DNA of 64,000 nt from an uncultured Tenacibaculum sp. (GCF_947498805.1 NZ_CANMLT010000002.1:62001-126000); one strand, 5' to 3'. Counted from the first letter of the stretch, positions 48,058 to 64,000 are shown. Notes: a model not told the origin generated them from the letters alone. Numbers and translations: made by a program.

Positions 48058-51000
48058 ATGAAAGAACAATTATTATTCTCAATACTTGGTTTTTTAACTA
48101 GTTTTTATACCTATTCTCAAACTTTTACAGAACTCAATACAGCAAACTTAACCGATCTTTCTAATAGCTCTGCGGTTTGGGGTGATTATGATAATGACGG
48201 TGACTTGGATGTCTTATTAACAGGATTAGATTCCCGTGTATCAAATAGAAAATATTCGAAAATATATACGAATAATAATGGAACTTTTATTGAGCTTGCT
48301 AATGCTAATTTAGTAGGAGTAGCATTTGGTCGTTCTGCTTGGGGCGATTATGATAATGATGGGGATTTAGATATTTTATTAACAGGTCAATCTGCCAGTG
48401 GAAATATTTCAAAAATATACACAAACACAGCAGGAACTTTTACTGAGCTTGCTACGGCTAATTTAACAGGGGTAGGAGGTAGTTCTGTAGTTTGGGGAGA
48501 TTATGACAATGATGGAGATCTAGATATACTATTAACAGGAGGTACTTCAAAAATATATACAAACAATGCAGGAACTTTTACAGAGCTTACTACTGCTAAT
48601 TTACCCAGAGTAGATAATGGTGCTGTAGTTTGGGGAGATTATGACAATGATGGGGATTTAGACATTTTGTTAACAGGATATACAGGAAGTGCTGATATTT
48701 CAAAGATATATACCAATACCAGAGGGGTTTTTACAGAACTTGTTACAGCAAATTTAATAGGAGTGTCTTATAGTGATGTTGAGTGGGGAGACTATGATAA
48801 TGATGGTGATTTAGATATATTATTAACAGGATATACAGGAAGTTCAACGGTTTCAAAAATATATACGAATACCTCTGGAAGTTTTACCGAATTAGCAACT
48901 GCTAATTTACCAGGGTTACAACATAGTTCTGCAGCTTGGGGCGATTATGACAATGATGGAGATTTAGATATCTTATTAACAGGTATAAGAGGAAGTATAG
49001 AGATTTCAAAAATATATACAAACAATGCAGGAACTTTTACAGAGTTGATTACTGCAAATTTAACTAATGTGCGTTATGGTCGTGCAACATGGGGCGATTA
49101 TGACAATGATAATGATTTAGATATTTTATTAACAGGGGAATTAACGGGAGGAAGAGTTTCAAAAATATATACCAATAATACGGTTGTTTCTAATACACCG
49201 CCTACAGCACCAACCAATCCAACCGCAATAGTAAATGGAAATGAAGTAACAATAAATTGGACAGCTAGTACAGATGCAGAAACACCAAGTAATGGATTAA
49301 GTTATAATGTATACATAAAAGAAAATCCAATAGGAATTCCTTTTTATGTAAATACTCCAATGGCACAAGAAAATAACGGTTGGCGTAAACTGCCAGCAAA
49401 GGGTAATGTAGGACAAGGTACTAGCTATACTTATAGTTTCTCAGAAGAGTGTACTAAAAATTACGTCTTTAAGATCCAAGCCATTGATCATAGTTTTGCT
49501 GGATCTCCTTTTTCTGCGGAAGGAAGTTTTCGAATTATTGATACAGTAAATCCAACAGTAGAAACGAAAAACATTACAGTATCATTAGACGCTACAGGTT
49601 ATGCAAATGTAGCTGCGACAGAGGTAGATAATGGTTCGTCCGATAATTGTGGTGTTCAGTCTATGTTGTTGACTCCCAATATATTTGATGTTACTACTTT
49701 AGGAGACAATACCGTAACACTTACAGTAACTGATATCAACGGAAATTCTAGTGCTAAAACTGCTACGGTAACAGTACAACAGGTATTTACCGAAGATACG
49801 ACAGCAAATATAATTGATGTTTATCAAAGTGATTTAGCTTGGGGAGATTATGATAACGACGGAGATTTAGACTTGTTGATTACGGGTAAAAAATCTACTG
49901 GTGTAATTTCAGACCCAGTTTCAAAAATTTACACGAATAATGGAGGTACATTTACAGAATTGACTTCTGCTAATTTAGTGGGTGTTCAATATGGAGATTC
50001 GGCCTGGGGAGATTATGATAATGATGGTGATTTGGATCTACTTATTACAGGACAAGGTGTTGGAAATACATACGTAACAAAAATCTATACAAATAATGGA
50101 GGTACTTTTACAGAGTTATCGACTCCTACTATAGCTGGAATTGTTGGAGATATCACTTGGGGAGATTATGATAATGATGGAGATTTAGATATATTGTTAG
50201 CTGGTGGTATTGGACGTTTGTCAATATCAAAAATATACACAAATGATGCAGGAACTTTTACAGAATTGACCACAGCTAATTTAATTGGGGTAAATAGTGG
50301 TGCTGTTGCCTGGGGTGATTATGATAATGATGGAGATTTGGATGTGTTATTAACTGGATACACAGGGAGTTTAGATATCTCTAAAATATATACTAACAAT
50401 AATGGTACGTTTACAGAATTGACTTCTGCAAATTTAATAGGGATATCTTATAGTTCAGTAGCTTGGGGAGATTATGATAATGATGGTGATTTGGATATAT
50501 TAATGTCTGGATACACAGGAAGTGCCGATGTAACAAAAATTTATACTAATACAAATGGAATATTTTCAGAACTTGCAACTCCACATATACGAGGTCAACA
50601 AGAAGGCTCAGTAGCTTGGGGAGATTATGATAACGACGGAGATTTAGATGTATTACTAACAGGAAGGTTAAACACTAAAATATATAGTAATAACGCAGGT
50701 GTTTTCACTCAAGTAGCTGCTGCAGATAATCTAACTCAAATAGCAGTAAGTGATGGTATTTGGGGAGATTATGATAATGATGGGGATTTAGATATAGCAT
50801 TTTCAGGTGTTACCGCCACTTCTTTCACTTCAAAAATATATACGAATAATACGATTGCTTCCAATACACCACCGACAGCGCCTAAGAATCCTACTGCCGT
50901 AGTAAATGGTAATGAAGTTACAATAAGCTGGGGAGCTAGTACAGATGTACAGACTCCTAGTAACGGATTAAGTTATAATGTATATATAAAGGAGAATCCA

Positions 51001-54000
51001 GTAGGAGTTCCAGTTTATACCAAAACCCCTATGGCACAAGAAAATAATGGTTGGCGAAAATTACCTGTCTTGGGTAATACAGGGCAAGGTACTAGTTATA
51101 TCTATAAATTTCCTGCAGCTTGTACTAAAAATTATACTTTTAAAGTTCAAGCCATTGATCATAATTTTGCAGGATCTTCTTTCTCTACAGAAGGAAGTTT
51201 TAGTACTGTAGATACTACTAACCCAACGGTTGTTACTCAAGATATTACTGTTCAATTAGATACTGCAGGAAATGTAAGTATCACACCAGCTCAAATTGAT
51301 AATGGTTCAACAGATAACTGTGGAATTCAATCAATGAGTTTAGATACTACATCTTTTGATTGTACCAATGTTGGAGCCAACACAGTGACTTTGACAGTTA
51401 CTGATGTCAATGGAAATTCAGATACCAAGACAGCTACAGTAACCGTAGAAGATAAGGTAAATCCAACAGTTGTTACTCAAGATATTACTGTTCAATTAGA
51501 TGCCACAGGAAATGCAAGTATCACACCAGCTCAAATCAATAACGGATCAACCGATAACTGTGGAATTCAATCAATGAGTTTAGATGTTACTTCTTTTGAT
51601 TGTACTAATATTGGAGCAAACACAGTGACATTAACGGTAACAGATGTAAATGGGAACTCAGATACAAAGACAGCTTCAGTAACCGTAGAAGATAAAGTAA
51701 AACCAACGGTTGTTACTCAAAACATTACCGTTCAATTAGACGCTACAGGAAATGTAAGTATCACACCAGCTCAAATCAATAACGGATCAACCGATAACTG
51801 TGGAATTCAATCAATGAGTTTAGATACTACATCTTTTGATTGTACTAATGTTGGAGCCAACACAGTGACTTTGACAGTTACTGATGTCAATGGAAATTCA
51901 GATACCAAGACAGCTACAGTAACCGTAGAAGATAAGGTAAAGCCAACAGTTGTTACTCAGGATATCTCTGTTCAATTAGCTACTACAGGAAATGTAAGTA
52001 TCACGCCAGCTCAAATTAATAACGGATCAACCGATAACTGTGGAATTCAATCAATGAGTTTAGATGTTACATCTTTTGATTGTACTAATGTTGGAGCCAA
52101 CACAGTGACATTAACGGTTACAGATGTTAATGGAAACACTAACACCAATACAGCAACCGTAACAGTAGAAGACAAGGTAAACCCAATAGTTGTAACAAAA
52201 AACATAACCGTTCAATTAGATGCTGCAGGAAATGCAAGTATCATGCCAGCTCAAATTAATAATGGCTCAACAGATAACTGTGGAATCCAATCAATGAGTT
52301 TAGATACTACATCCTTTGATTGTACGAATGTTGGAGCCAACACCGTGACTTTAACTGTTATTGATGTTAATGGAAACTCAAACACAAATACAGCAACCGT
52401 AACCATAGAAGATAAAGTAAATCCAACGGTTGTTACTCAAAACATCACTGTTCAATTAAATGTCACAGGAGATGTAAGTATCACGCCAGCTCAAATTGAT
52501 AATGGTTCAACTGATAACTGTGGAATCCAATCAATGAGCTTAGATACAACATCCTTTGATTGTACCAATGTTGGAGCTAACACCGTGACTTTAACGGTAA
52601 CAGATGTTAATGGAAACTCAGATTCTAAAACAGCTGCGGTAACCGTAGAAGATAAGGTAAATCCAATAGTTGTTATTCAAGATATTACCATTCAATTAGA
52701 CGCTACAGGAAATGCAAGTATCACCCCAGCTCAAATCAATAATGGCTCAACAGATAACTGTGGAATCCAATCAATGAGCTTAGATACTACATCTTTTGAT
52801 TGTACGAATGTTGGAGCAAACACAGTGACGTTAACGGTAACCGATGTAAATGGAAACTCAGATACCAAAACAGCTACAGTAACAGTAGAAGATAAGGTAA
52901 ATCCAACAGTTGTTACTCAAGATATTACTGTTCAATTAAACGCCACAGGAAATGTAAGTATTACACCAGCTCAAATGAATAATGGCTCAACAGATAATTG
53001 TGGAATTCAATCAATGAGTTTAGATGTTACTTCATTTGATTGTACCAGTGTAGGAACCAACACTGTGACGTTAACGGTAACAGATGTTAATGGAAACTCA
53101 GATTCTAAAACAGCTACGGTAACAGTAGAAGATAAGGTAAATCCAACGGTTGCTACTCAAAACATCACTGTTCAATTAGACACCACAGGAAATGTAAGTA
53201 TCACGCCAGCTCAAATCAATAACGGATCAACCGATAACTGTGGAATTCAATCAATGAGTTTAGATGTTACTTCTTTTGATTGTACTAATATTGGAGCCAA
53301 CACCGTGACTTTAACTGTTATTGATGTTAATGGAAACTCAGATTCTAAAACAGCTACGGTAACAGTAGAAGATAAGGTAAATCCAACGGTTGTTACTCAA
53401 GATATTACTGTTCAATTAAACGCCACAGGAAATGTAAGTATCACACCAGCTCAAATCAATAATGGTTCAACAGATAACTGTGGAATTCAATCAATGAGTT
53501 TAGATACTACATCTTTTGATTGTACGAATGTTGGAGCCAACACAGTGACTTTGACAGTTATTGATGTCAATGGAAATTCAGATACCAAGACAGCTACAGT
53601 AACCTTAGAAGATAAGGTAAAGTCAACAGTTGTTACTCAAGATATTACTGTTCAATTAAACGCCACAGGAAATGTAAGTATCACACCAGCTCAAATCAAT
53701 AATGGTTCAACAGATAACTGTGGAATTCAATCAATGAGTTTAGATACTACATCTTTTGATTGTACGAATGTTGGAGCCAACACAGTGACTTTGACAGTTA
53801 TTGATGTCAATGGAAATTCAGAAACCAAGACAGCAACGGTAACAGTAGAAGACAAGGTAAATCCAACGGTGATTACTCAAGATATTACTGTTCAATTAGA
53901 TGCCACAGGAAATGTAAGTATCACACCAATTCAAATAAACAAAGGTTCAACTGATAACTGCGGAATCCAATCAATGAGCTTGGATATCATAGCATTTGAT

Positions 54001-55716
54001 TGTACTAATGTTGGAGCAAACACAGTGACGTTAACGGTAACCGATGTAAATGGGAACTCAGAAACCAAGACAGCAACGGTAACAGTAGAAGACAAGGTAA
54101 ATCCAACGGTGATTACTCAAGATATTACTGTTCAATTAGACGCCACAGGAAATGTAAGTATCACACCAGCTCAAATTAATAATGGTTCAACTGATAACTG
54201 CGGAATCCAATCAATGAGCTTGGATATCATAGCATTTGATTGTACTAATGTTGGAGCAAACACAGTGACGTTAACGGCAACAGATGTTAACGGAAACTCA
54301 GAAACCAAGACAGCAACGGCAACAGTAGAAGACAAGGTAAATCCAACGGTGATTACTCAAGATATTAATGTTCAATTAGACGCTACAGGAAATGCAAATA
54401 TCACAGCTGCTCAAATTAATAATGGTTCAACCGATAACTGCGGAATTCAATCAATGAGTTTAGATACAACATCTTTTGATTGTACTAATGTTGGAGCCAA
54501 CACCGTGACTTTAACGGTAACAGATGGTAACGGAAACTCAGATACCAAGACAGCAACGGTAACAGTAGAAGACAAGGTAAATCCAACAGTTGTAACACAA
54601 GATATTACTGTTCAATTAGATGCCACAGGAAATACAAGTATCACGCCAGCTCAAATTAATAATGGTTCAACTGATAATTGTGGAATTCAATCAATAAGTT
54701 TAGATACTACATCTTTTGATTGTACTAATATAGGAGCAAATACAGTGACATTAACGGTAATAGATGTAAATGGGAACTCAGATACAAAGACAGCTTCAGT
54801 AACCGTAGAAGACAAGGTAAAACCAACGGTTGTTACTCAAGATATTACTGTTCAATTAGACGCTACAGGAAATGTAAGTATCACGCCAGCTCAAATTAAT
54901 AATGGTTCAACTGATAATTGTGGAATTCAATCAATGAGTTTAGATATAACTTCATTTGATTGTACCAATGTAGGAGCTAACACCGTGATTTTAACGGTAA
55001 CGGATGTTAATGGAAATTCAGATATAAAAACAGCAACGGTAACGGTAGAAGATGTAGCAATACCAATCGCTATTACTAGAGATATTATTGTGGAATTGGA
55101 TGAAAATGGGAATGCAACAATTACTCCAGAAGAAATAAACGATGGTTCTTTTGATGAATGTGGAATTGCTAGTTTACAATTGGATAAAACAGTATTCGAA
55201 TGCCCAACTTTAACTGCTCATGAAGTTGTATTAACTGTTAGAGACACGAATGGATTGACAAGTACAGCTACTGCGGAAGTAACTTTTACTTCAAATGATA
55301 TTGATAATGATTTAGTAGCAGATGTATGTGATGAAGACATGGATGGAGATGGTGTTTTAAATCAAGTAGATAATTGCCCTACTACATATAACCCTCAACA
55401 AGAAGATTTAGATAAAAATGGAATAGGTGATGTATGCGATAGATCAGATTTAGCTATACCTAAAGGGTTTTCTCCTAACGGAGATAATGTAAATGATCTA
55501 TTCATAATAGAGGGGTTACATAAATATCCAATTAATAGATTACAAATATTAAACCGTAGAGGAATTAGTGTATTTACCGCCAAAAACTATCAAAATGATT
55601 GGGCAGGTACGTTAGAGAATAATACTAAGAAACTTCCAACAGGTCCTTATTTCTATATTTTAGAAATAAATGAAGGAATGAAAGTGATTAAGGGATGGGT
55701 TTACATTAATTATTAA
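48058..55716 (+). CDS. Giant secreted T9SS type B cargo: FG-GAP/VCBS propellers, FN3-like and HYR-like repeats, TSP type 3 repeats, gliding-motility C-terminal domain
   Basis: Signal peptide; 14 x WGDYDNDGDLD; 16 near-identical 80-aa repeats plus divergent ones; DMDGDGVLNQVDNCP; C-terminal PKGFSPNGDNVNDLFIIEGL…GPYFYILEI…KGWVYINY. Confidence 0.93.
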   Translation: MKEQLLFSILGFLTSFYTYSQTFTELNTANLTDLSNSSAVWGDYDNDGDLDVLLTGLDSRVSNRKYSKIYTNNNGTFIELANANLVGVAFGRSAWGDYDNDGDLDILLTGQSASGNISKIYTNTAGTFTELATANLTGVGGSSVVWGDYDNDGDLDILLTGGTSKIYTNNAGTFTELTTANLPRVDNGAVVWGDYDNDGDLDILLTGYTGSADISKIYTNTRGVFTELVTANLIGVSYSDVEWGDYDNDGDLDILLTGYTGSSTVSKIYTNTSGSFTELATANLPGLQHSSAAWGDYDNDGDLDILLTGIRGSIEISKIYTNNAGTFTELITANLTNVRYGRATWGDYDNDNDLDILLTGELTGGRVSKIYTNNTVVSNTPPTAPTNPTAIVNGNEVTINWTASTDAETPSNGLSYNVYIKENPIGIPFYVNTPMAQENNGWRKLPAKGNVGQGTSYTYSFSEECTKNYVFKIQAIDHSFAGSPFSAEGSFRIIDTVNPTVETKNITVSLDATGYANVAATEVDNGSSDNCGVQSMLLTPNIFDVTTLGDNTVTLTVTDINGNSSAKTATVTVQQVFTEDTTANIIDVYQSDLAWGDYDNDGDLDLLITGKKSTGVISDPVSKIYTNNGGTFTELTSANLVGVQYGDSAWGDYDNDGDLDLLITGQGVGNTYVTKIYTNNGGTFTELSTPTIAGIVGDITWGDYDNDGDLDILLAGGIGRLSISKIYTNDAGTFTELTTANLIGVNSGAVAWGDYDNDGDLDVLLTGYTGSLDISKIYTNNNGTFTELTSANLIGISYSSVAWGDYDNDGDLDILMSGYTGSADVTKIYTNTNGIFSELATPHIRGQQEGSVAWGDYDNDGDLDVLLTGRLNTKIYSNNAGVFTQVAAADNLTQIAVSDGIWGDYDNDGDLDIAFSGVTATSFTSKIYTNNTIASNTPPTAPKNPTAVVNGNEVTISWGASTDVQTPSNGLSYNVYIKENPVGVPVYTKTPMAQENNGWRKLPVLGNTGQGTSYIYKFPAACTKNYTFKVQAIDHNFAGSSFSTEGSFSTVDTTNPTVVTQDITVQLDTAGNVSITPAQIDNGSTDNCGIQSMSLDTTSFDCTNVGANTVTLTVTDVNGNSDTKTATVTVEDKVNPTVVTQDITVQLDATGNASITPAQINNGSTDNCGIQSMSLDVTSFDCTNIGANTVTLTVTDVNGNSDTKTASVTVEDKVKPTVVTQNITVQLDATGNVSITPAQINNGSTDNCGIQSMSLDTTSFDCTNVGANTVTLTVTDVNGNSDTKTATVTVEDKVKPTVVTQDISVQLATTGNVSITPAQINNGSTDNCGIQSMSLDVTSFDCTNVGANTVTLTVTDVNGNTNTNTATVTVEDKVNPIVVTKNITVQLDAAGNASIMPAQINNGSTDNCGIQSMSLDTTSFDCTNVGANTVTLTVIDVNGNSNTNTATVTIEDKVNPTVVTQNITVQLNVTGDVSITPAQIDNGSTDNCGIQSMSLDTTSFDCTNVGANTVTLTVTDVNGNSDSKTAAVTVEDKVNPIVVIQDITIQLDATGNASITPAQINNGSTDNCGIQSMSLDTTSFDCTNVGANTVTLTVTDVNGNSDTKTATVTVEDKVNPTVVTQDITVQLNATGNVSITPAQMNNGSTDNCGIQSMSLDVTSFDCTSVGTNTVTLTVTDVNGNSDSKTATVTVEDKVNPTVATQNITVQLDTTGNVSITPAQINNGSTDNCGIQSMSLDVTSFDCTNIGANTVTLTVIDVNGNSDSKTATVTVEDKVNPTVVTQDITVQLNATGNVSITPAQINNGSTDNCGIQSMSLDTTSFDCTNVGANTVTLTVIDVNGNSDTKTATVTLEDKVKSTVVTQDITVQLNATGNVSITPAQINNGSTDNCGIQSMSLDTTSFDCTNVGANTVTLTVIDVNGNSETKTATVTVEDKVNPTVITQDITVQLDATGNVSITPIQINKGSTDNCGIQSMSLDIIAFDCTNVGANTVTLTVTDVNGNSETKTATVTVEDKVNPTVITQDITVQLDATGNVSITPAQINNGSTDNCGIQSMSLDIIAFDCTNVGANTVTLTATDVNGNSETKTATATVEDKVNPTVITQDINVQLDATGNANITAAQINNGSTDNCGIQSMSLDTTSFDCTNVGANTVTLTVTDGNGNSDTKTATVTVEDKVNPTVVTQDITVQLDATGNTSITPAQINNGSTDNCGIQSISLDTTSFDCTNIGANTVTLTVIDVNGNSDTKTASVTVEDKVKPTVVTQDITVQLDATGNVSITPAQINNGSTDNCGIQSMSLDITSFDCTNVGANTVILTVTDVNGNSDIKTATVTVEDVAIPIAITRDIIVELDENGNATITPEEINDGSFDECGIASLQLDKTVFECPTLTAHEVVLTVRDTNGLTSTATAEVTFTSNDIDNDLVADVCDEDMDGDGVLNQVDNCPTTYNPQQEDLDKNGIGDVCDRSDLAIPKGFSPNGDNVNDLFIIEGLHKYPINRLQILNRRGISVFTAKNYQNDWAGTLENNTKKLPTGPYFYILEINEGMKVIKGWVYINY
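51241..55080 (+). repeat. 16 x 240-bp in-frame tandem coding repeat
   Basis: Each unit begins gatattactgttcaatta or a close variant, exactly every 240 nt, no indels. Confidence 0.95.
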
Positions 55717-55726
55717 ACAAAAGAGA

Positions 55727-56674
55727 ATGAAATTTAAATTAATACTGAGCATTTTAATGATCATGATAACAATAGAAGGATATTCACAATATGAACCTTT
55801 CTATTCTCAATATAACAACAACTTTAATTTAATAAATCCAGCATATTCTGGTGCACATGATTTTTTTACATTGACAGCAAATGTAAGAAGTCAATGGGTA
55901 AATGAACCTGGTAGTCCAAAAACAGGTTTCTTGACATTACAAGGAGGAATAGGCAATAACTTGGGAGTTGGATTTTCAGCAGTTTATGATAAGGTTTATG
56001 TTTTAAATGAAAGTCATTTGTATGGAGATGTTTCTTATGCTATTAGATTGAATGAAGAATCAACGCTATCCTTCGGATTAAAAGCTGGTGGAAGTTTTAT
56101 AAATGTAGATTTACAAAGTCTAGGAATTACTAATGATTTATTGTTTAGTAGTAATATAAATGAGTTTAAATTTAACATGGGAGCTGGTGCTTTCTTTCAT
56201 ACAGATAAATTTTATGCTAGTTTTTCAACCTTGAATTTATTAGGAAATAGATATTATAGTAGAGAAGGAACTAATATCAACTCAGCGAATGAAAGTCCTA
56301 TTTTTTATGTGTCTTCAGGTTATAGATTTCAGACAGGTGATAAGATAGCATTAAAACCTTCGTTTTTGATGCGTTATGCTAATGGAGAACCAATATCTTT
56401 AGATGTATCTTTAGGAGTATTATATAATAATCAAGTAGAATTAGGTATTTCACATAGAATAAATAATTCAATAGCAGGTTTAATTCAAATAAGAATAAAT
56501 GACAACACTAAAATAGGGTATACTTATGAAAGTTATTTAGCTAGTGTAAGTCAGTATCTTGGTGGATCGCATGAAATAAGTTTGACTTTTGATCTATGGA
56601 AAGGAAGATATGGCTATAGATATAGAAACAATAGAAATAAAAATGAGCCACCGTTTTATTGGGGGTCAGAATAA
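55727..56674 (+). CDS. PorP/SprF family type IX secretion system membrane protein
   Basis: YEPFYSQYNNNFNLINPAYSGAHDFFTLTANVRSQWVNEPGSPKTGFLTLQGGIGNNLGVGFSAVYDK; directly after T9SS cargo. Confidence 0.93.
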   Translation: MKFKLILSILMIMITIEGYSQYEPFYSQYNNNFNLINPAYSGAHDFFTLTANVRSQWVNEPGSPKTGFLTLQGGIGNNLGVGFSAVYDKVYVLNESHLYGDVSYAIRLNEESTLSFGLKAGGSFINVDLQSLGITNDLLFSSNINEFKFNMGAGAFFHTDKFYASFSTLNLLGNRYYSREGTNINSANESPIFYVSSGYRFQTGDKIALKPSFLMRYANGEPISLDVSLGVLYNNQVELGISHRINNSIAGLIQIRINDNTKIGYTYESYLASVSQYLGGSHEISLTFDLWKGRYGYRYRNNRNKNEPPFYWGSE

Positions 56675-56765: not shown

Positions 56766-57479
56766 TTAAAGAGGTATAAAAGCTTGAATTTTATAAAATT
56801 CATTGGCATTTACATTATCATTAGAAATGTTAGGTCCGGCAGCAAAACGGAACCACACACCATTGTTTAGCGTAGCCTTGATATAACCTCCCAAGAATTG
56901 ATATAAGGTAACGGTATCACCTTGATCTACTCTTGTTTGCCCTAAATGTTCGTAAAAACCTCCTAGCGATACATGCTTGTTTATTTTAAAACCTGGAATT
57001 ACCCAATTCAGCATTAAATCTTGTGAATTCCCTTCACCACGTAAACTTTTGTAATAGGCAGTATAAGCTTCTAATTCAAAGTTTCCAGAATGATGTAATA
57101 AGAAGATACTAGGTATTATGCTCTCAGCAATCTTTGTACCCGCCGATTGTGATAATAACTTTCCATGACCAAATCCTAAACTAGGATTGAAGTACCATTT
57201 TTTATTTTTAGAGGTAAAACCAAGTCCTACACCGGTTTCTAAGAATAAATCCTTTCCTTGATTCCCAAAGGATGGGTTCACCCAGAATACACTATAAAAG
57301 GTTAGTTTTTTGTTAGACTCTAGTTCATATGATCCCAAAAAGACGTTATTAAAACCAGCTCCACTATTATGAATTGGCATTATAGCAAAGGTTGTTTTAG
57401 ACTCTTTTTTTTCTTGTGAAAAGGAATGAAAAGACGTGAATAAAAATGCGATTATAAATGTGAAATATATTTTTTTCAT
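56766..57479 (-). CDS. Outer-membrane/exported beta-rich protein (DUF6733-like)
   Basis: Signal peptide; TFAIMPIHNSGAGFNNVFLGSYELESNKKLTFYSVFWVNPSF. Confidence 0.55.
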   Translation of the reverse strand: MKKIYFTFIIAFLFTSFHSFSQEKKESKTTFAIMPIHNSGAGFNNVFLGSYELESNKKLTFYSVFWVNPSFGNQGKDLFLETGVGLGFTSKNKKWYFNPSLGFGHGKLLSQSAGTKIAESIIPSIFLLHHSGNFELEAYTAYYKSLRGEGNSQDLMLNWVIPGFKINKHVSLGGFYEHLGQTRVDQGDTVTLYQFLGGYIKATLNNGVWFRFAAGPNISNDNVNANEFYKIQAFIPL

Positions 57480-57490
57480 GATTAAAATTT

Positions 57491-58258
57491 TTAATGGTGA
57501 TTGTTAAATTGAGGCATTCTTTTTTCAATAAAAGCTCGCATGCCTTCTTGTTGATCTGGAGTACTGAAAAGAGAGTGAAATAACTTTCTTTCAAATACAA
57601 TTCCCGATTTAAGTCCTGTTTCTAAGGATTGATTGATGGTTTCTTTGGCTGTTTTTAAAGCAACTTTAGAATAGTTGGCAACTTTTTGTGCTTGATTAAG
57701 TACATGTTGCATAAAATCTTTTTGAGGGAAAATTTTTGAAACTAATCCTATTCTATTTGCTTCAATAGCTGAAACATCTCTACCAGTTAGAATGATATCC
57801 ATGGCTTTAGACTTTCCTACTAACTTGGTTAATCGTTGAGTACCGCCGATACCAGGAATTACTCCGAGTTTTATTTCAGGTTGTCCAAAGACGGCATTTT
57901 CTGATGCATAAATAATATCCGACATCATGGCAAGTTCACAACCTCCACCGAAAGCATAACCAGAAACAGCTGCAATAATTGGTGTTTTAAGTTTGGTTAT
58001 TCTTTCCCAATGATTGAAATAATCTTCTTCAATCATTTGTGTTGCATTTTTGCTAGCCATTTCTTTTATATCTGCACCTGCACAGAAAAAAGTATCATTA
58101 CCAGTTATAATTATGCAACCTACAGAGGAATCAACATCGTTGTTTTCCAGTCCAGTTAATAACTCATGCATGAGCTCTGTGCTTAAGGCATTTAAAGCTT
58201 TAGGTCGATTTAATTGGGCAATAAGTACCCTGCCTATTTGTTTAAATAGTACATTCAT
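57491..58258 (-). CDS. Enoyl-CoA hydratase/isomerase (crotonase) family protein
   Basis: CIIITGNDTFFCAGADIKEMA; AVSGYAFGGGCELAMMSDIIYASENAVFGQPEIKLGVIPGIGGTQRL. Confidence 0.93.
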   Translation of the reverse strand: MNVLFKQIGRVLIAQLNRPKALNALSTELMHELLTGLENNDVDSSVGCIIITGNDTFFCAGADIKEMASKNATQMIEEDYFNHWERITKLKTPIIAAVSGYAFGGGCELAMMSDIIYASENAVFGQPEIKLGVIPGIGGTQRLTKLVGKSKAMDIILTGRDVSAIEANRIGLVSKIFPQKDFMQHVLNQAQKVANYSKVALKTAKETINQSLETGLKSGIVFERKLFHSLFSTPDQQEGMRAFIEKRMPQFNNHH

Positions 58259-58285
58259 TATTTTAATATTTAGTTTTATTTTACG

Positions 58286-59599
58286 TTAAGAATCCCAAAT
58301 AGCTCCATAAGCAGGAATACCGAGATACTCCATATTATGTACTACCTTTTCGGTAAGTTTTTGATTGGATATACAGATTACTGCTTCCGCATTAAAATCT
58401 TTATAAGCCTTGTAGGTTAGTTTAACCAAATCTGGTTTTCCATTGGCGTCTGTGTCCCAAATAATGGCATTAGGTTGTACCGCTAAGATTTCATTTACTA
58501 ATTCCTTACCATATGTTTTTTCAGGATTTCTTGTAGCCCAAATAAGTAGGGAAGGAGTTTCATTTAAAAGTAAATGCGGTATACAAGGACCAATACCACT
58601 ACCTGTAGCAACCCAAATAACTTTATTAAATAGCTTATCAACATTCCCAACACCTGCAGTTGGAATTCCTTTTACCCATATTTTTTCTGGTTTATCATTG
58701 ATAAAACTTCCTGTCCAATCTCCCGCTCTGGAAATTGTAAGTCTAAACCCGTCTTTATCAGGAGCAGGAACATTCGCAAAAGAATGCCACTCTAGTAGTG
58801 GATTTCTACTTAATGCAGTAGAAGATCCTGCAAATGGAGTAACTCCGTAATTAAAAGAGGTTAAGGCTACATGATTAGAAGGTTTAACAATATCTATATC
58901 GACTTTTTTTAAACGTAACCATGGTAGTATCACACTAATGGTTAGGGTAGTAAGAATCCAAAAGTTAACACTCGAGAATATAGTGTCTATAGAATGTTGG
59001 ACTTTTAAAAACAAAATCATTTGTATCCAAAACAGTATGAGTACTGTCCAACCACCTAATCGGTGCATAGCTTCAAATTGATTATGATTTTTAGCTCTCA
59101 TTTTTGGTAATGCCGTGATTATGATAGCTATTAAAAGAACTAATATAATTGAAGTAACTATGATGATTGGTAGGTTTACTCCTTCATATCCGTTGATATA
59201 ATAATGAAACAGACTTATTACAAATATGATATACCAAAGTGTTCCCATACTTGAACTAGAGCTATGTAGACCACCAAAATGATAAATTTTGGCGCAGATT
59301 CGTCTAATAAACAAAGGCCAGTACTTAGGTGCACTTGTTGCTATTTTGAATAATAGATTAATTACATATTGTTGACGTATTAATATGGCCAATGTAAAAT
59401 TGTATAGAATTACTTCAGCAATGCTGTTTAAAGCTATATAATCAGATGAAAACCAGTTCCAAGATGTTGCTGCTTTAAATAAAATAACACTGTTTATGAT
59501 TGTTATCAGTATAAATAATCTACGGTATGGAATAAACCATGGATGTTTTCCGATTCGATACCAAAAGTTCTTCTTTGGTGGTAATTTAATTGCTTCCAT
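58286..59599 (-). CDS. Integral membrane FAD/NAD(P) oxidoreductase, TmpA-like
   Basis: N-terminal multi-TM region; WHSFANVPAPDKDGFRLTISRAGDWT (FAD-type); VIWVATGSGIGPCIPHLL (NAD-type). Confidence 0.65.
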   Translation of the reverse strand: MEAIKLPPKKNFWYRIGKHPWFIPYRRLFILITIINSVILFKAATSWNWFSSDYIALNSIAEVILYNFTLAILIRQQYVINLLFKIATSAPKYWPLFIRRICAKIYHFGGLHSSSSSMGTLWYIIFVISLFHYYINGYEGVNLPIIIVTSIILVLLIAIIITALPKMRAKNHNQFEAMHRLGGWTVLILFWIQMILFLKVQHSIDTIFSSVNFWILTTLTISVILPWLRLKKVDIDIVKPSNHVALTSFNYGVTPFAGSSTALSRNPLLEWHSFANVPAPDKDGFRLTISRAGDWTGSFINDKPEKIWVKGIPTAGVGNVDKLFNKVIWVATGSGIGPCIPHLLLNETPSLLIWATRNPEKTYGKELVNEILAVQPNAIIWDTDANGKPDLVKLTYKAYKDFNAEAVICISNQKLTEKVVHNMEYLGIPAYGAIWDS

Positions 59600-59605
59600 A
59601 GTTGT

Positions 59606-61237
59606 TTAGTTTAAAAAGTCTTTCAATTTTCTTTTATCAATTTTACCTCTAGAAGTTTTGGGTAACTCCTTTAGAAAAATGAATTCCGATGGTAAATAGT
59701 AATAAGGTAATTCTTGAGAAATAGTGTCTTTAATACCTTGTAAAAGAGGATGTTTTTCATCGGTAGTGCTACTAATAAAAGAAACCAAATAATTTTGATG
59801 TTTGATTGTTACCGCTCTAATTACCTCAGAAAAGCGTTCAATCACCTTCGAAATAGCATCTAGTTCTACTCTAAATCCTTTTATTTTTACTTGATCATCA
59901 ATCCTTCCATAATGAATTAATTCACCTTCAGAATTCCATTTTCCCAAGTCTCCTGTATTAAACATTTGGTTTCCATTGTTTAAGAAAGGATCAGGAGCAT
60001 AGCGAACTTTATTTAACTCATGGTTATTTATATACCCTTTGGTAACGCAATCCCCGCCGGCCCACATAATACCTACTTCACCAATTTTACAAGGCTCTTT
60101 GTTTTCATTTAATATATAAACGGTGTTGTTAGGTGTTGGTTTTCCAATGGAAAGTTCCTTGTTTTTGATGTCACACTTTTTCATGGTGTTAACGATAGTG
60201 GTTTCTGTGGGGCCGCAAGAATTGTAAAAGTTAGATACTTTAGCCCATTGATTTGCTAAAATTTCTGGACAAGGTTCTCCTGCAACGGCAACAGTTTCTA
60301 TGTCTTTGCATTTTTTTAAATCGATAGCGGTAAGTATAGTAGGTGTAGCGATTATTACATTTGCTTTTTGAGCAGTTTCTTCAATATTTTTTCCTCTAAT
60401 AAGTAGTGTTCCACCATTTCCTAAACATCCTAATACTTCCCAGGCTGCCATATCAAAAGAGATATTGAGTATTTGGGCAACTTTGGTGCCTGGTTTAATG
60501 TTTAAATCACCTGGGGAGTTGTATAAAATATTGCATAAATTTTTATGCGATACTTGTACACCATTTGGAGTACCCGTTGTACCAGAGGTAAATAGGATAA
60601 AACAAGTAGCTTCTGGAGAGGTACTTTTTTGACTAATAAGTTTAACATTACCGTATAAATTTCTATAAATATCTCTCGATAACTCCTTATCAATAAAAAT
60701 GATTTCTTTATTGTTACCAAAGTTTGTTTGGGAAGAATAATCAGATAATGTAAGAGTGATAGAAGCTTTACTCAAGTCATAAATTGTATTGAGCATTTGC
60801 TTAGGTACAATTCTAGGATCTTGTGGTACATAGCTAGCTCCTAATTTGAGACAAGCAATAATACCGATAATCATTTCTAAAGATCGATGTGTGTAAAGCG
60901 CTACCGTATTTCCAGCGGTTATTCCTTTTTGTTTAAGAATTAAAGCAAGTATAGTGGCTTCATTATCTAAACTTTTGTAAGTAAGCCTATTTTCTAAGTG
61001 GCTTACTGCTATATTATTTGGGTTTTTACTAACCCAATACTCGAAAGCATTCAAAATATTTTCATGTTTCGGGGGAGTCTTCGGTGCTATTCCAAAATTC
61101 ACAAAATCTTGTTGATCTTCTAGTGATAAATTTTGAATAGCATCTTTGTTGATTAAAGAACCTATGGAATAAAGTTCTTGACTGTTACTCTCAATTTCTC
61201 CATTGAGAGCTTCATCATTTAAAGCTATTTTTTTCAT
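59606..61237 (-). CDS. Stand-alone NRPS-like adenylation (AMP-binding) protein
   Basis: A3 LFTSGTTGTPNGVQVSHKN; A5 NSCGPTETT; A7/A8 YNTGDLGKW-like and GRIDDQVKIKGFRVELDAI; A10 PKTSRGKIDKRKL; no visible carrier-protein or condensation domain. Confidence 0.9.
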   Translation of the reverse strand: MKKIALNDEALNGEIESNSQELYSIGSLINKDAIQNLSLEDQQDFVNFGIAPKTPPKHENILNAFEYWVSKNPNNIAVSHLENRLTYKSLDNEATILALILKQKGITAGNTVALYTHRSLEMIIGIIACLKLGASYVPQDPRIVPKQMLNTIYDLSKASITLTLSDYSSQTNFGNNKEIIFIDKELSRDIYRNLYGNVKLISQKSTSPEATCFILFTSGTTGTPNGVQVSHKNLCNILYNSPGDLNIKPGTKVAQILNISFDMAAWEVLGCLGNGGTLLIRGKNIEETAQKANVIIATPTILTAIDLKKCKDIETVAVAGEPCPEILANQWAKVSNFYNSCGPTETTIVNTMKKCDIKNKELSIGKPTPNNTVYILNENKEPCKIGEVGIMWAGGDCVTKGYINNHELNKVRYAPDPFLNNGNQMFNTGDLGKWNSEGELIHYGRIDDQVKIKGFRVELDAISKVIERFSEVIRAVTIKHQNYLVSFISSTTDEKHPLLQGIKDTISQELPYYYLPSEFIFLKELPKTSRGKIDKRKLKDFLN

Positions 61238-61308: not shown

Positions 61309-61352
61309 ATCACAGAAATATCACAAAAAAATCATTTTTAAATCACAAGATA
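61309..61352. promoter_or_regulatory. Four 11-bp-phased direct repeats, putative OmpR/PhoB-type response-regulator operator
   Basis: ATCACAGAAAT / ATCACAAAAAA / ATCATTTTTAA / ATCACAAGATA at 61309, 61320, 61331, 61342. Confidence 0.6.
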
Positions 61353-61395: not shown

Positions 61396-62145
61396 ATGAA
61401 AAATATACTTATCATTGAAGATGATATTGCAGTATCTAAACTCCTAGAATTTAATTTAAAAGCTGAGAATTTTTACACCAAAACAAGTACCGATGGAAAG
61501 GTAGGTTTGGATCTAGCCCTTAAAGAAGATTTTTCTCTTATAATTTTAGATCTTACATTACCTGGTTTAAATGGTATAGAGGTTTGTAAATCGATTAGAA
61601 AAGTAAAGAACACTCCAATTTTAATGCTAACAGCTAAAAGTAACGAGATTGATAAAGTACTTGGATTAGAGATAGGAGCAGATGATTATATGACCAAACC
61701 TTTTAGTGTAAGAGAGCTACTAGCTAGAGTCAATGCTTTAATTAGAAGAAATTTAATTGTTAAACGAAAAGAATCTGAAAATAAATTATATAAAAATATA
61801 TCATTTGATGAGCTTTCAATAGATATAGAAATGAGAAAAGTAACACTAAATACTCAAAGGATAAATCTATCACCTAAGGAGTTTGAACTGTTAGTGTTAA
61901 TGGCTTCAACACCGGGAAAAGTATATAGTAGGGATTCTTTATTGAAAATCATATGGGGGTATGATTTTGAAGGGTATAGGCATACAGTTAATTCACATAT
62001 TAACAGATTGCGAAATAAAATTGAGAGTAATTCAGAGGAACCTAAATTTATACTAACTTCTTGGGGTGTTGGTTATAGATTTAATGAAGAATTAAAAATC
62101 CCTTCCCGTGACCTCAAACAAAACTATTTCAAACAAGTTAATTAA
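61396..62145 (+). CDS. OmpR/PhoB-family response regulator
   Basis: Receiver domain (LIIEDDIAVSKLLEFNL…LIILDLTLPGLNGIEVC…TAKSNEIDKVLGLEIGADDYMTKPF); winged-helix C-terminus. Confidence 0.96.
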   Translation: MKNILIIEDDIAVSKLLEFNLKAENFYTKTSTDGKVGLDLALKEDFSLIILDLTLPGLNGIEVCKSIRKVKNTPILMLTAKSNEIDKVLGLEIGADDYMTKPFSVRELLARVNALIRRNLIVKRKESENKLYKNISFDELSIDIEMRKVTLNTQRINLSPKEFELLVLMASTPGKVYSRDSLLKIIWGYDFEGYRHTVNSHINRLRNKIESNSEEPKFILTSWGVGYRFNEELKIPSRDLKQNYFKQVN

Positions 62146-63643
62146 AAAGTTAAGTGTATCTTTTTTAGTTATTATTTTAATCATTGGTGTTGTTTACATA
62201 TGTACAACCTATTACTTGATAAAACAATTTTACAGTGAAACTTCACAACACCTAAATGCCAATGTGGCAAATCATTTAGTTGAAGAAAAGTTTAGAAATG
62301 CATCTCCATATTTAGAAAATGGCAAAGTAAATAAAGAATTATTTGATGATTTAATGCACGATATGATGGCAGTAAACCGTGCTATTGAAGTGTATTTATT
62401 AAATGATGAAGGAGGAATTGTATATTCGGTTGTTTTAGATCATTCAGACCCTAAAAGTCCGATGACGATGATCGATTTAAACCCTATTAATAAGTTTATA
62501 AGTAATAATCAGGCTTATGTTTTAGGAGACGATCCAAGAGATAAGAACAATAAAAAGATATTCTCAGCAGCCTATTTTGAGAAAGAAAATCATTCAGGTT
62601 ACATCTATATAATTTTGGCCAGTGAAAAGTATCAAGAGGTTTGTAATTCCCTGTTCTCAAGTTTTTTTTTGAATCTGGGACTTACAACCTCTTTAATAAC
62701 AATGTTTTCTGCCTTACTTTTAGGTTTATTAAGTATTTGGTTTTTGACTAAAAGTTTACGAAGTATAATTTATCACGTAAATAAATTTAAAGAAGGGAAT
62801 TTAAAGAGTAGGATTCCCAATCCTGAAAAATCTGATTTATCAATCTTAGCGGTAACATTCAATCAAATGGCAGAAACAATTGCTGCCAATATTAAAGAGA
62901 TCAACGCAGTAAATCAGTTTAGGAAAGATTTAATAGCGAATGTTTCACATGACTTAAGATTACCATTAACTTCTATTAAAGGTTATGTAGAAACGCTGCG
63001 TTTAAAGGGTAGGGTGATGGCAATCGATGATAAAACAGAATTTATGAATATCATTGAAAAGAGCGCAGAATATCTTGGTAATATGATTAATCAACTCTTT
63101 GACTATTCAAAGTTGGATGCTAAGAATATTAAAATATGTAAAGAACCGGTTGATATAATAACGTTATTATTAGAAATAAAGAAACGATATATAATTCTTG
63201 CAAAAACAAAGAATATCATATTAGAAATTAATGGAGCTAAAGAAGCTCCGTTAGTTTTAGCCGATAGCACGCTTATTGAAAGAGTGATTCAAAATATTAT
63301 AGACAACGCAATAAAATTCACTCCAGAAAAAGGTAAGGTAGTCGTAACTGTGTTAGTCAAAAAAACTCTAGTAACTATTCAAATAAAAGATTCTGGTTTT
63401 GGTATGAGTGAATTGAATAAACAGTTAGTTTATAACAACGAAAACCAACAGAGAGAAATAGATTATTATGAACAGGGAATGGGCCTAGGACTAGCAATCG
63501 TAAAAAAAATGATAGAACTACACAATTCCAAATTGAAAATAAAAAGTAAACCAAATGAAGGTACTCTTTTTGAGTTTTCACTGCCTATTTATGAAGAAAA
63601 CTGTTTGCTATATAATCAGCAAATTAATATCTCTATACGGTAA
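62108..63643 (+). CDS. Sensor histidine kinase
   Basis: Two TM helices, HAMP, NVSHDLRLPLTSIKGYVE, N-box and GLGLAIVKK; GTG start inside the response regulator gene. Confidence 0.93.
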   Translation: MTSNKTISNKLIKKLSVSFLVIILIIGVVYICTTYYLIKQFYSETSQHLNANVANHLVEEKFRNASPYLENGKVNKELFDDLMHDMMAVNRAIEVYLLNDEGGIVYSVVLDHSDPKSPMTMIDLNPINKFISNNQAYVLGDDPRDKNNKKIFSAAYFEKENHSGYIYIILASEKYQEVCNSLFSSFFLNLGLTTSLITMFSALLLGLLSIWFLTKSLRSIIYHVNKFKEGNLKSRIPNPEKSDLSILAVTFNQMAETIAANIKEINAVNQFRKDLIANVSHDLRLPLTSIKGYVETLRLKGRVMAIDDKTEFMNIIEKSAEYLGNMINQLFDYSKLDAKNIKICKEPVDIITLLLEIKKRYIILAKTKNIILEINGAKEAPLVLADSTLIERVIQNIIDNAIKFTPEKGKVVVTVLVKKTLVTIQIKDSGFGMSELNKQLVYNNENQQREIDYYEQGMGLGLAIVKKMIELHNSKLKIKSKPNEGTLFEFSLPIYEENCLLYNQQINISIR

Positions 63644-64000
63644 ATCAAACCAGTCAGCAACAGTTTTATTTGTTAAGATACCATGGTAAAAATACATTCC
63701 ATTTCGTAAACTTTTATCAAACCGAGCTGCGTTTTCAAAACCTCCTTCTTCTGCAATATCCAATAAGTACGGAGTAAATATATTGCTTATAGAAACAGAA
63801 GCAGTACGAGAATATCGAGAAGGGATGTTAGGTACACAATAATGAATAACACCATGTTCGGTAAATGTTGGTTGACTGTGTGTGGTGACTTTTGAAGTTT
63901 CAAAGCATCCGCCTCTATCAATACTTACATCAACTATAACAGCTCCTTCTTTCATTTGTTCAATCATACCTTCTGTTACAATAACGGGAGAGCGATCTTT
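63608..64000 (-). CDS. ald: Alanine dehydrogenase, C-terminal part (continues past right edge)
   Basis: Frame open to window end (…DRSPVIVTEGMIEQMKEGAVIVDVSIDRGGCFETSKVTTHSQPTFTEHGVIHYCVPNIPSRYSRTAS). Confidence 0.88.
   Translation of the reverse strand, partial: KDRSPVIVTEGMIEQMKEGAVIVDVSIDRGGCFETSKVTTHSQPTFTEHGVIHYCVPNIPSRYSRTASVSISNIFTPYLLDIAEEGGFENAARFDKSLRNGMYFYHGILTNKTVADWFDLPYRDINLLII

Follow-up and report, generated by a model that had tools for sequence, protein, structure and literature searches.

A bacterial gene module of probable TmpL type in Tenacibaculum with a probable role in small-molecule biosynthesis

A gene island in the window (the whole 64,000-nucleotide stretch of DNA that was analysed) appears to be a bacterial, mostly split form of the fungal TmpL-type module, i.e. 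an accessory, self-regulated unit for the biosynthesis of a small molecule, with a dedicated enoyl-CoA hydratase. We put the probability of this reading at about 70%, a figure that does not extend to the detailed chemistry. Fungal TmpL and TmpB consist of an adenylation (A) domain fused to a TmpA-like flavoprotein; normal conidiation depends on tmpB, and redox balance and virulence on tmpL (PMC2766074, PMC4804170). The cited literature gives neither an enzymatic reaction nor a product for these proteins. In culturable bacteria, an operon of four genes that brings its own regulator, a probable exporter and a near-invariant substrate pocket would open the question of the TmpL product to deletion, expression and metabolomics.

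The named relatives of the window's Bacteroidota genome are Tenacibaculum. The island in this genus comprises six genes (Table 1): the core trio (adenylation protein, flavoprotein and crotonase) and a DUF6733 gene on one strand, and a divergent two-component system. The gaps are 6 nt between adenylation protein and flavoprotein, 27 nt between flavoprotein and crotonase, and 11 nt between crotonase and DUF6733. The first-pass annotation had described three same-strand genes with 6- and 27-nt gaps, and the open reading frames coincide exactly with the positions it gave; it overlooked the fourth gene of the operon (DUF6733) and the divergent two-component system (61396–63643). A promoter scan of the operon gave 29 sites, compared with 22 ± 5 in shuffled sequence. 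With PADLOC, the core genes match no defence family; the sole match, of the histidine-kinase ATPase type, is to the kinase.

Table 1. Features of the island in the window (positions counted from the first nucleotide of the window)
Feature	Position	Strand	Basis
Adenylation protein, stand-alone, NRPS-type, 543 aa	59606..61237	-	ORF call, Pfam/NCBIfam
TmpA-like membrane flavoprotein, 437 aa, six TM helices + FAD/NAD(P) domain	58286..59599	-	Motifs, AF2 model
Enoyl-CoA hydratase-type crotonase, 255 aa, cassette-specific clade	57491..58258	-	Pfam, alignment, tree
DUF6733 outer-membrane protein, 237 aa, porin-like, signal peptide + 12 predicted strands	56766..57479	-	
Four direct repeats, 11-bp spacing, ATCACA/TGTGAT type, putative response-regulator operator	61309..61347	.	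Divergent promoter
OmpR-family response regulator, Response_reg + Trans_reg_C	61396..62145	+	
Membrane histidine kinase, HAMP + HisKA + HATPase_c	62108..63643	+	

The adenylation protein matches Pfam AMP-binding (1.5e-60), and its best NCBIfam model is AA-adenyl-dom (3.3e-90). No carrier or condensation domain was detected in it with Pfam or NCBIfam, in agreement with its earlier description as an NRPS-type protein lacking both, and it is not a canonical NRPS. The pocket residues in the window are D262, M263, W266, I296, A317, A319, S340, I348, V349 and K532. Across the 80 sequences that cover these positions the pocket reads D-M-W-I-A-A-[SACG]-I-[VI]-K and is near-invariant, although the domain as a whole diverges: six of the ten positions are fixed, two hold only Val or Ile, one holds Ala or Ile, and one a small residue. 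A pocket Asp of the Asp235 type marks an alpha-amino acid substrate, and this residue is invariant here. The residues at the W239, A301 and I330 positions resemble Phe-type codes (PheA code). Because of the Asp together with these Phe-type-like positions, the substrate is likely to be one hydrophobic alpha-amino acid that resembles Phe. Activation as the predicted role of this protein is well supported.

The crotonase (Pfam ECH_1, 2.4e-81) is closely similar to true hydratases. The catalytic residues Glu108 and Glu128 are found in all 76 crotonase rows that have a letter at these positions, and they support a predicted hydration step. Two loci carry a different crotonase type in the same slot, a Saprospiraceae MAG (L058, downstream of 3454) and a Nonomuraea (L095, downstream of 11254), which argues that the activity is needed. 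An ordinary beta-oxidation enzyme was considered for this gene and rejected: in all ten genomes searched the best match was the copy inside the cassette, and crotonases from cassettes group in a single clade (34 of 36 rows, node value 98), apart from the genomic paralogues.

The two glutamates and the similarity to true hydratases would also suit a catabolic, beta-oxidation-like operon, where an acyl-CoA ligase acts on a hydrophobic acid, the flavoprotein passes electrons into the membrane and the crotonase hydrates the acid for degradation. This explanation is quite improbable, however, since NRPS models outscore acyl-CoA ligase models for an adenylation protein with an invariant Asp235-type residue, and the unit has neither a thiolase nor a 3-hydroxyacyl-CoA dehydrogenase. 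The presence of an outer-membrane barrel and a dedicated two-component system, and the rarity of the cassette as an accessory island (see below), also speak against it.

The membrane flavoprotein reaches no curated Pfam or NCBIfam family: NAD_binding_1 scores 12 bits only, and the Pfam ferric reductase and FAD-binding families give no match. An AF2 model (pLDDT 90.5, pTM 0.86) displays six transmembrane helices and a C-terminal FNR-type domain, and the sequence has the motifs WHSF, GDWT and GSGIGP, the last of these in 81 of 81 sequences. This bears out the N-terminal multi-TM region and C-terminal FAD and NAD motifs of the first-pass annotation. That annotation would have been contradicted by a middle protein of an ordinary known reductase family with no A-domain co-occurrence in other genomes; the protein found here matches no curated family and recurs next to an A domain in its relatives. 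The suggested likeness to the TmpA type holds; the closest solved fold is that of an NADPH oxidase and not simply ferredoxin-NADP reductase. Foldseek places the S. pneumoniae NOX (SpNOX) at the top (E = 5.5e-12), followed by DUOX1, NOX2 and NOX5, and a sequence profile search reaches NOX2 (4.5e-6). FNR-type domains usually pass single electrons, and therefore a NOX-like role fits better than desaturation. The modelled fold and the motifs speak for a redox step at the membrane.

Histidines H107, H112, H172 and H179 are invariant in 81 close sequences. The profile search aligns H179 with NOX2 H209, the TM5 ligand of the inner haem, and H112 is at matching depth in TM3. At the outer-haem positions stand F/L126 and, in most sequences, Q193; the four-histidine set of NOX is thus incomplete. 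It appears that only the inner-haem pair (H112/H179) is kept, and this pair may bind a haem. The single-haem forms of YedZ/STEAP retain the outer haem (PMC3591440), and an inner-haem-only form would therefore be unusual. The residues at the outer-haem positions weigh against a genuine NADPH oxidase or ferric reductase, which would produce superoxide/H2O2 or reduce iron while a separate, merely co-regulated effector or cofactor would come from the adenylation protein and crotonase. Such an arrangement would be in keeping with a fold and motifs nearest to NOX, with the altered reactive-oxygen levels of fungal tmpL mutants and with the existence of solo flavoprotein homologues. We consider it unlikely, since in addition the strict NOX FAD motif HPFT reads HSFA in the window flavoprotein, and an A domain adjoins the flavoprotein in every one of the close relatives described next, in some of them as a fusion.

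A scan of 84,980 species genomes for flavoprotein relatives yielded 410. The best 80 were kept, a set that is biased to close relatives and comes from Bacteroidota, Pseudomonadota, Chloroflexota, Cyanobacteriota and Actinomycetota. Among these best 80 of 410, an adenylation domain is directly upstream of the flavoprotein in 80/80 loci, and in 18 of the 80 the two are fused in frame to form one protein of ~1000 aa. The pairing of an A domain with a TmpA-type protein, proposed from the window, is thus a recurrent unit. A crotonase is directly downstream of the flavoprotein in 76 of the same best 80 loci; two of the remaining four stop at a contig edge, and two (L096 and L106) lack a crotonase despite enough flanking sequence. 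In Micromonosporaceae all three core genes are present in each of the 12 loci checked.

Split and fused states were compared on the tree, where well-supported branches force at least two label changes. An apparent fusion of A domain and flavoprotein in Streptomyces (L115) was rejected, as the two matches are in different frames with a 125-nt gap. The flavoprotein tree follows the phyla poorly (eight changes) and the distances of the three core genes correlate, which suggests transfer as a set. The cassette is rare, found in 3 of 395 sampled Bacteroidota and with 25 strong matches in 201 Micromonosporaceae. More distant flavoprotein homologues in Pantoea (47%) and cyanobacteria (about 30%) have neither an A domain nor a crotonase; the flavoprotein can therefore act alone. 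Solo flavoprotein genes (L021:9061-10236, L022:8917-10209 and L023:8923-10215) are located on Pantoea and cyanobacterial plasmids, and those of cyanobacteria have HlyD-type proteins next downstream.

The last gene of the operon encodes a DUF6733 protein (PF20507, 265.6 bits against a cut-off of 27), for which a signal peptide and 12 strands are predicted; the nearest known protein is the NanC porin. In some gammaproteobacteria its slot is occupied by members of other outer-membrane families, Gcw_chp (L053, L071) or a Tsx channel (L100). The DUF6733 barrel is a probable exporter. Since the unit includes a barrel predicted to span the outer membrane with 12 strands, as well as its own two-component system, we infer a small secreted product, and to this extent the small-molecule product envisaged in the first-pass annotation gains support; the lipid modification also envisaged there gains none.

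The divergent promoter is 158 bp long and contains four TGTGAT-type repeats with 11-bp spacing. Scoring of 13 loci against 300 simple shuffles each showed that no shuffle reaches the pattern in 12 of them and that 6 do in the remaining one. An 11-bp spacing of repeats is typical of OmpR/PhoB-family sites, and the four repeats are likely to be the operator bound by the response regulator. Outside Tenacibaculum the two-component system is linked to the cassette in some lineages only, and of six genomes tried, three have the linked regulator as their best match; orthology there is only partial. Gene content supports export and regulation as predicted functions of the unit.

Within the genus, the order kinase-regulator / adenylation-flavoprotein-crotonase-DUF6733 is identical in 15 of the 16 loci read (the window's own included); in the sixteenth a contig end falls inside the block. 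The conservation of gene order in these 15 loci, and in nearly all of the best 80 loci from five phyla, is far above chance. Of 168 genomes of the genus, 19 have the flavoprotein, and exactly those 19 have the histidine kinase. These genomes are related, and the match thus represents co-inheritance and not 19 independent events. The identical profiles nevertheless bear on the suggestion that only the adenylation/flavoprotein pair forms a unit, with the crotonase and two-component system as functionally unlinked neighbours. That suggestion is very improbable. It would account for the two loci that lack a crotonase despite enough flanking sequence and for the patchy linkage of the two-component system outside Tenacibaculum, but not readily for a crotonase that is present in nearly all loci, has its own clade and is substituted by another crotonase in two cases, nor for the crotonase-type gene that is also present at the published fungal tmpB locus.

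The block is flanked in other Tenacibaculum genomes by alanine dehydrogenase and a 120-aa gene. In 12 cassette-free relatives these two genes adjoin each other (within 0.5 kb in 11, at ~4 kb in one), and the six genes therefore behave as one insertion. In the window, one edge of the island is marked by the end of the alanine dehydrogenase gene (63608–64000, minus strand), which overlaps that of the kinase gene. At the other side, the place of the 120-aa flanking gene of most relatives is occupied by a 2552-aa repeat protein (48058–55716) with a gliding-motility/T9SS-type C-terminal stretch, followed by a PorP/SprF-like gene (55727–56674).

Two Tenacibaculum genomes have an alternative operon at the chromosomal site of the island (L175:6120-11842 and L177:2071-7606). 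It consists of DUF4440, a PLP decarboxylase, a carrier protein, an AMP-binding enzyme, an alpha/beta hydrolase and, as its last gene, DUF6733 (44% identical). Since DUF6733 ends this operon also, it may serve as a common exporter of different products.

In the mechanism proposed for the TmpL-type module, the adenylation protein would form an aminoacyl-AMP from one hydrophobic, Phe-like alpha-amino acid. Transfer of the aminoacyl group would involve no carrier domain but probably a soluble ester, such as that of CoA; an enzyme for the step from aminoacyl-AMP to CoA is not evident. The flavoprotein would carry out a redox step on the activated acid by shuttling electrons among NAD(P)H, FAD and a single haem in the inner leaflet, and the crotonase would add or remove water at the alpha,beta position. 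Export of the product would be by way of the DUF6733 barrel, with the operon turned on by the kinase/regulator pair. An activate-redox-hydrate order resembles the start of beta-oxidation carried out on an amino acid; this is the likeliest chemistry of those that can be envisaged, but a doubtful one. A signal or effector role for the product is likely by analogy with fungal TmpB. A broader proposal, somewhat less tentative than the chemistry yet still short of even odds, is that the A domain, a single-haem NOX-derived flavoprotein and the crotonase embody a carrier-free logic new to bacteria, which spans five phyla and filamentous fungi and, with its near-invariant pocket, would make one conserved secreted molecule acting in bacterial/fungal development or interaction. 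With the cassette, the superfamily of NADPH oxidases and ferric reductases would gain a new branch, and adenylation domains a use that needs no carrier protein.

The open-access literature searched yielded no account of the bacterial system. The 2009 paper considered TmpL orthologues to be confined to filamentous fungi; in the tree of Bushley and Turgeon, stand-alone A domains from Hahella and Salinispora are nested inside the fungal NPS12/TmpL group (PMC2823734). Compared by architecture, motifs, residue positions and this published tree, the bacterial cassette probably works like TmpL and is probably its kin. TmpA alone, the parallel drawn in the first instance, is rightly called similar, but fungal TmpL/TmpB (ChNPS12 subfamily; Alternaria brassicicola, Aspergillus fumigatus, A. 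nidulans) are closer. They share with the cassette an A domain without carrier or condensation domain, and six transmembrane helices with a C-terminal FAD/NAD(P) domain that includes GSGIGP. When produced as a recombinant protein, the FAD/NAD(P)-binding portion of TmpL bound flavin (PMC2766074, PMC4804170). Fused bacterial relatives are 1001–1045 aa long and the fungal proteins 989–1025 aa. An enoyl-CoA hydratase gene is also nearby in fungi: an enoyl-CoA hydratase/isomerase gene adjoins tmpB in several Aspergilli.

At the residue level, TmpB pocket positions D238, W242, C307, I315 and K495 correspond to D, W, S, I and K in the window (4/5 match), and Cys is found at the differing position in 12 relatives. 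The G-to-K spacing is 186–190 compared with 186 in TmpB, and the D-to-G spacing 80 compared with 71. The published FAD motif RLHFD reads RLTIS in the window, with R286 and L287 invariant. Unlike the single fungal polypeptide, the protein is encoded by two separate genes in Tenacibaculum, as in most bacteria, and the Tenacibaculum cassette differs further by its outer-membrane barrel and two-component system.

A. nidulans TmpA and AfeA are similar in that a membrane flavoprotein without a fused A domain adjoins the gene of an adenylate-forming enzyme. However, AfeA is 4-coumarate ligase-like and not an NRPS-type A domain, and no crotonase is reported there in the source consulted. The NADPH oxidases of the ferric reductase domain superfamily (SpNOX, NOX2, NOX5, DUOX1) have in common with the flavoprotein the six transmembrane helices and FAD/NAD(P)H domain, the EWHxF and GDWT stretches and the aligned TM5 histidine, and differ in that the flavoprotein keeps the inner-haem-type pair only. 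NRPS-like carboxylate reductases (A-T-R) likewise couple carboxylate activation to NAD(P)H-dependent redox chemistry, whereas the cassette lacks both a thiolation domain and a reductase of the short-chain dehydrogenase type, and its redox partner is a membrane flavoprotein.
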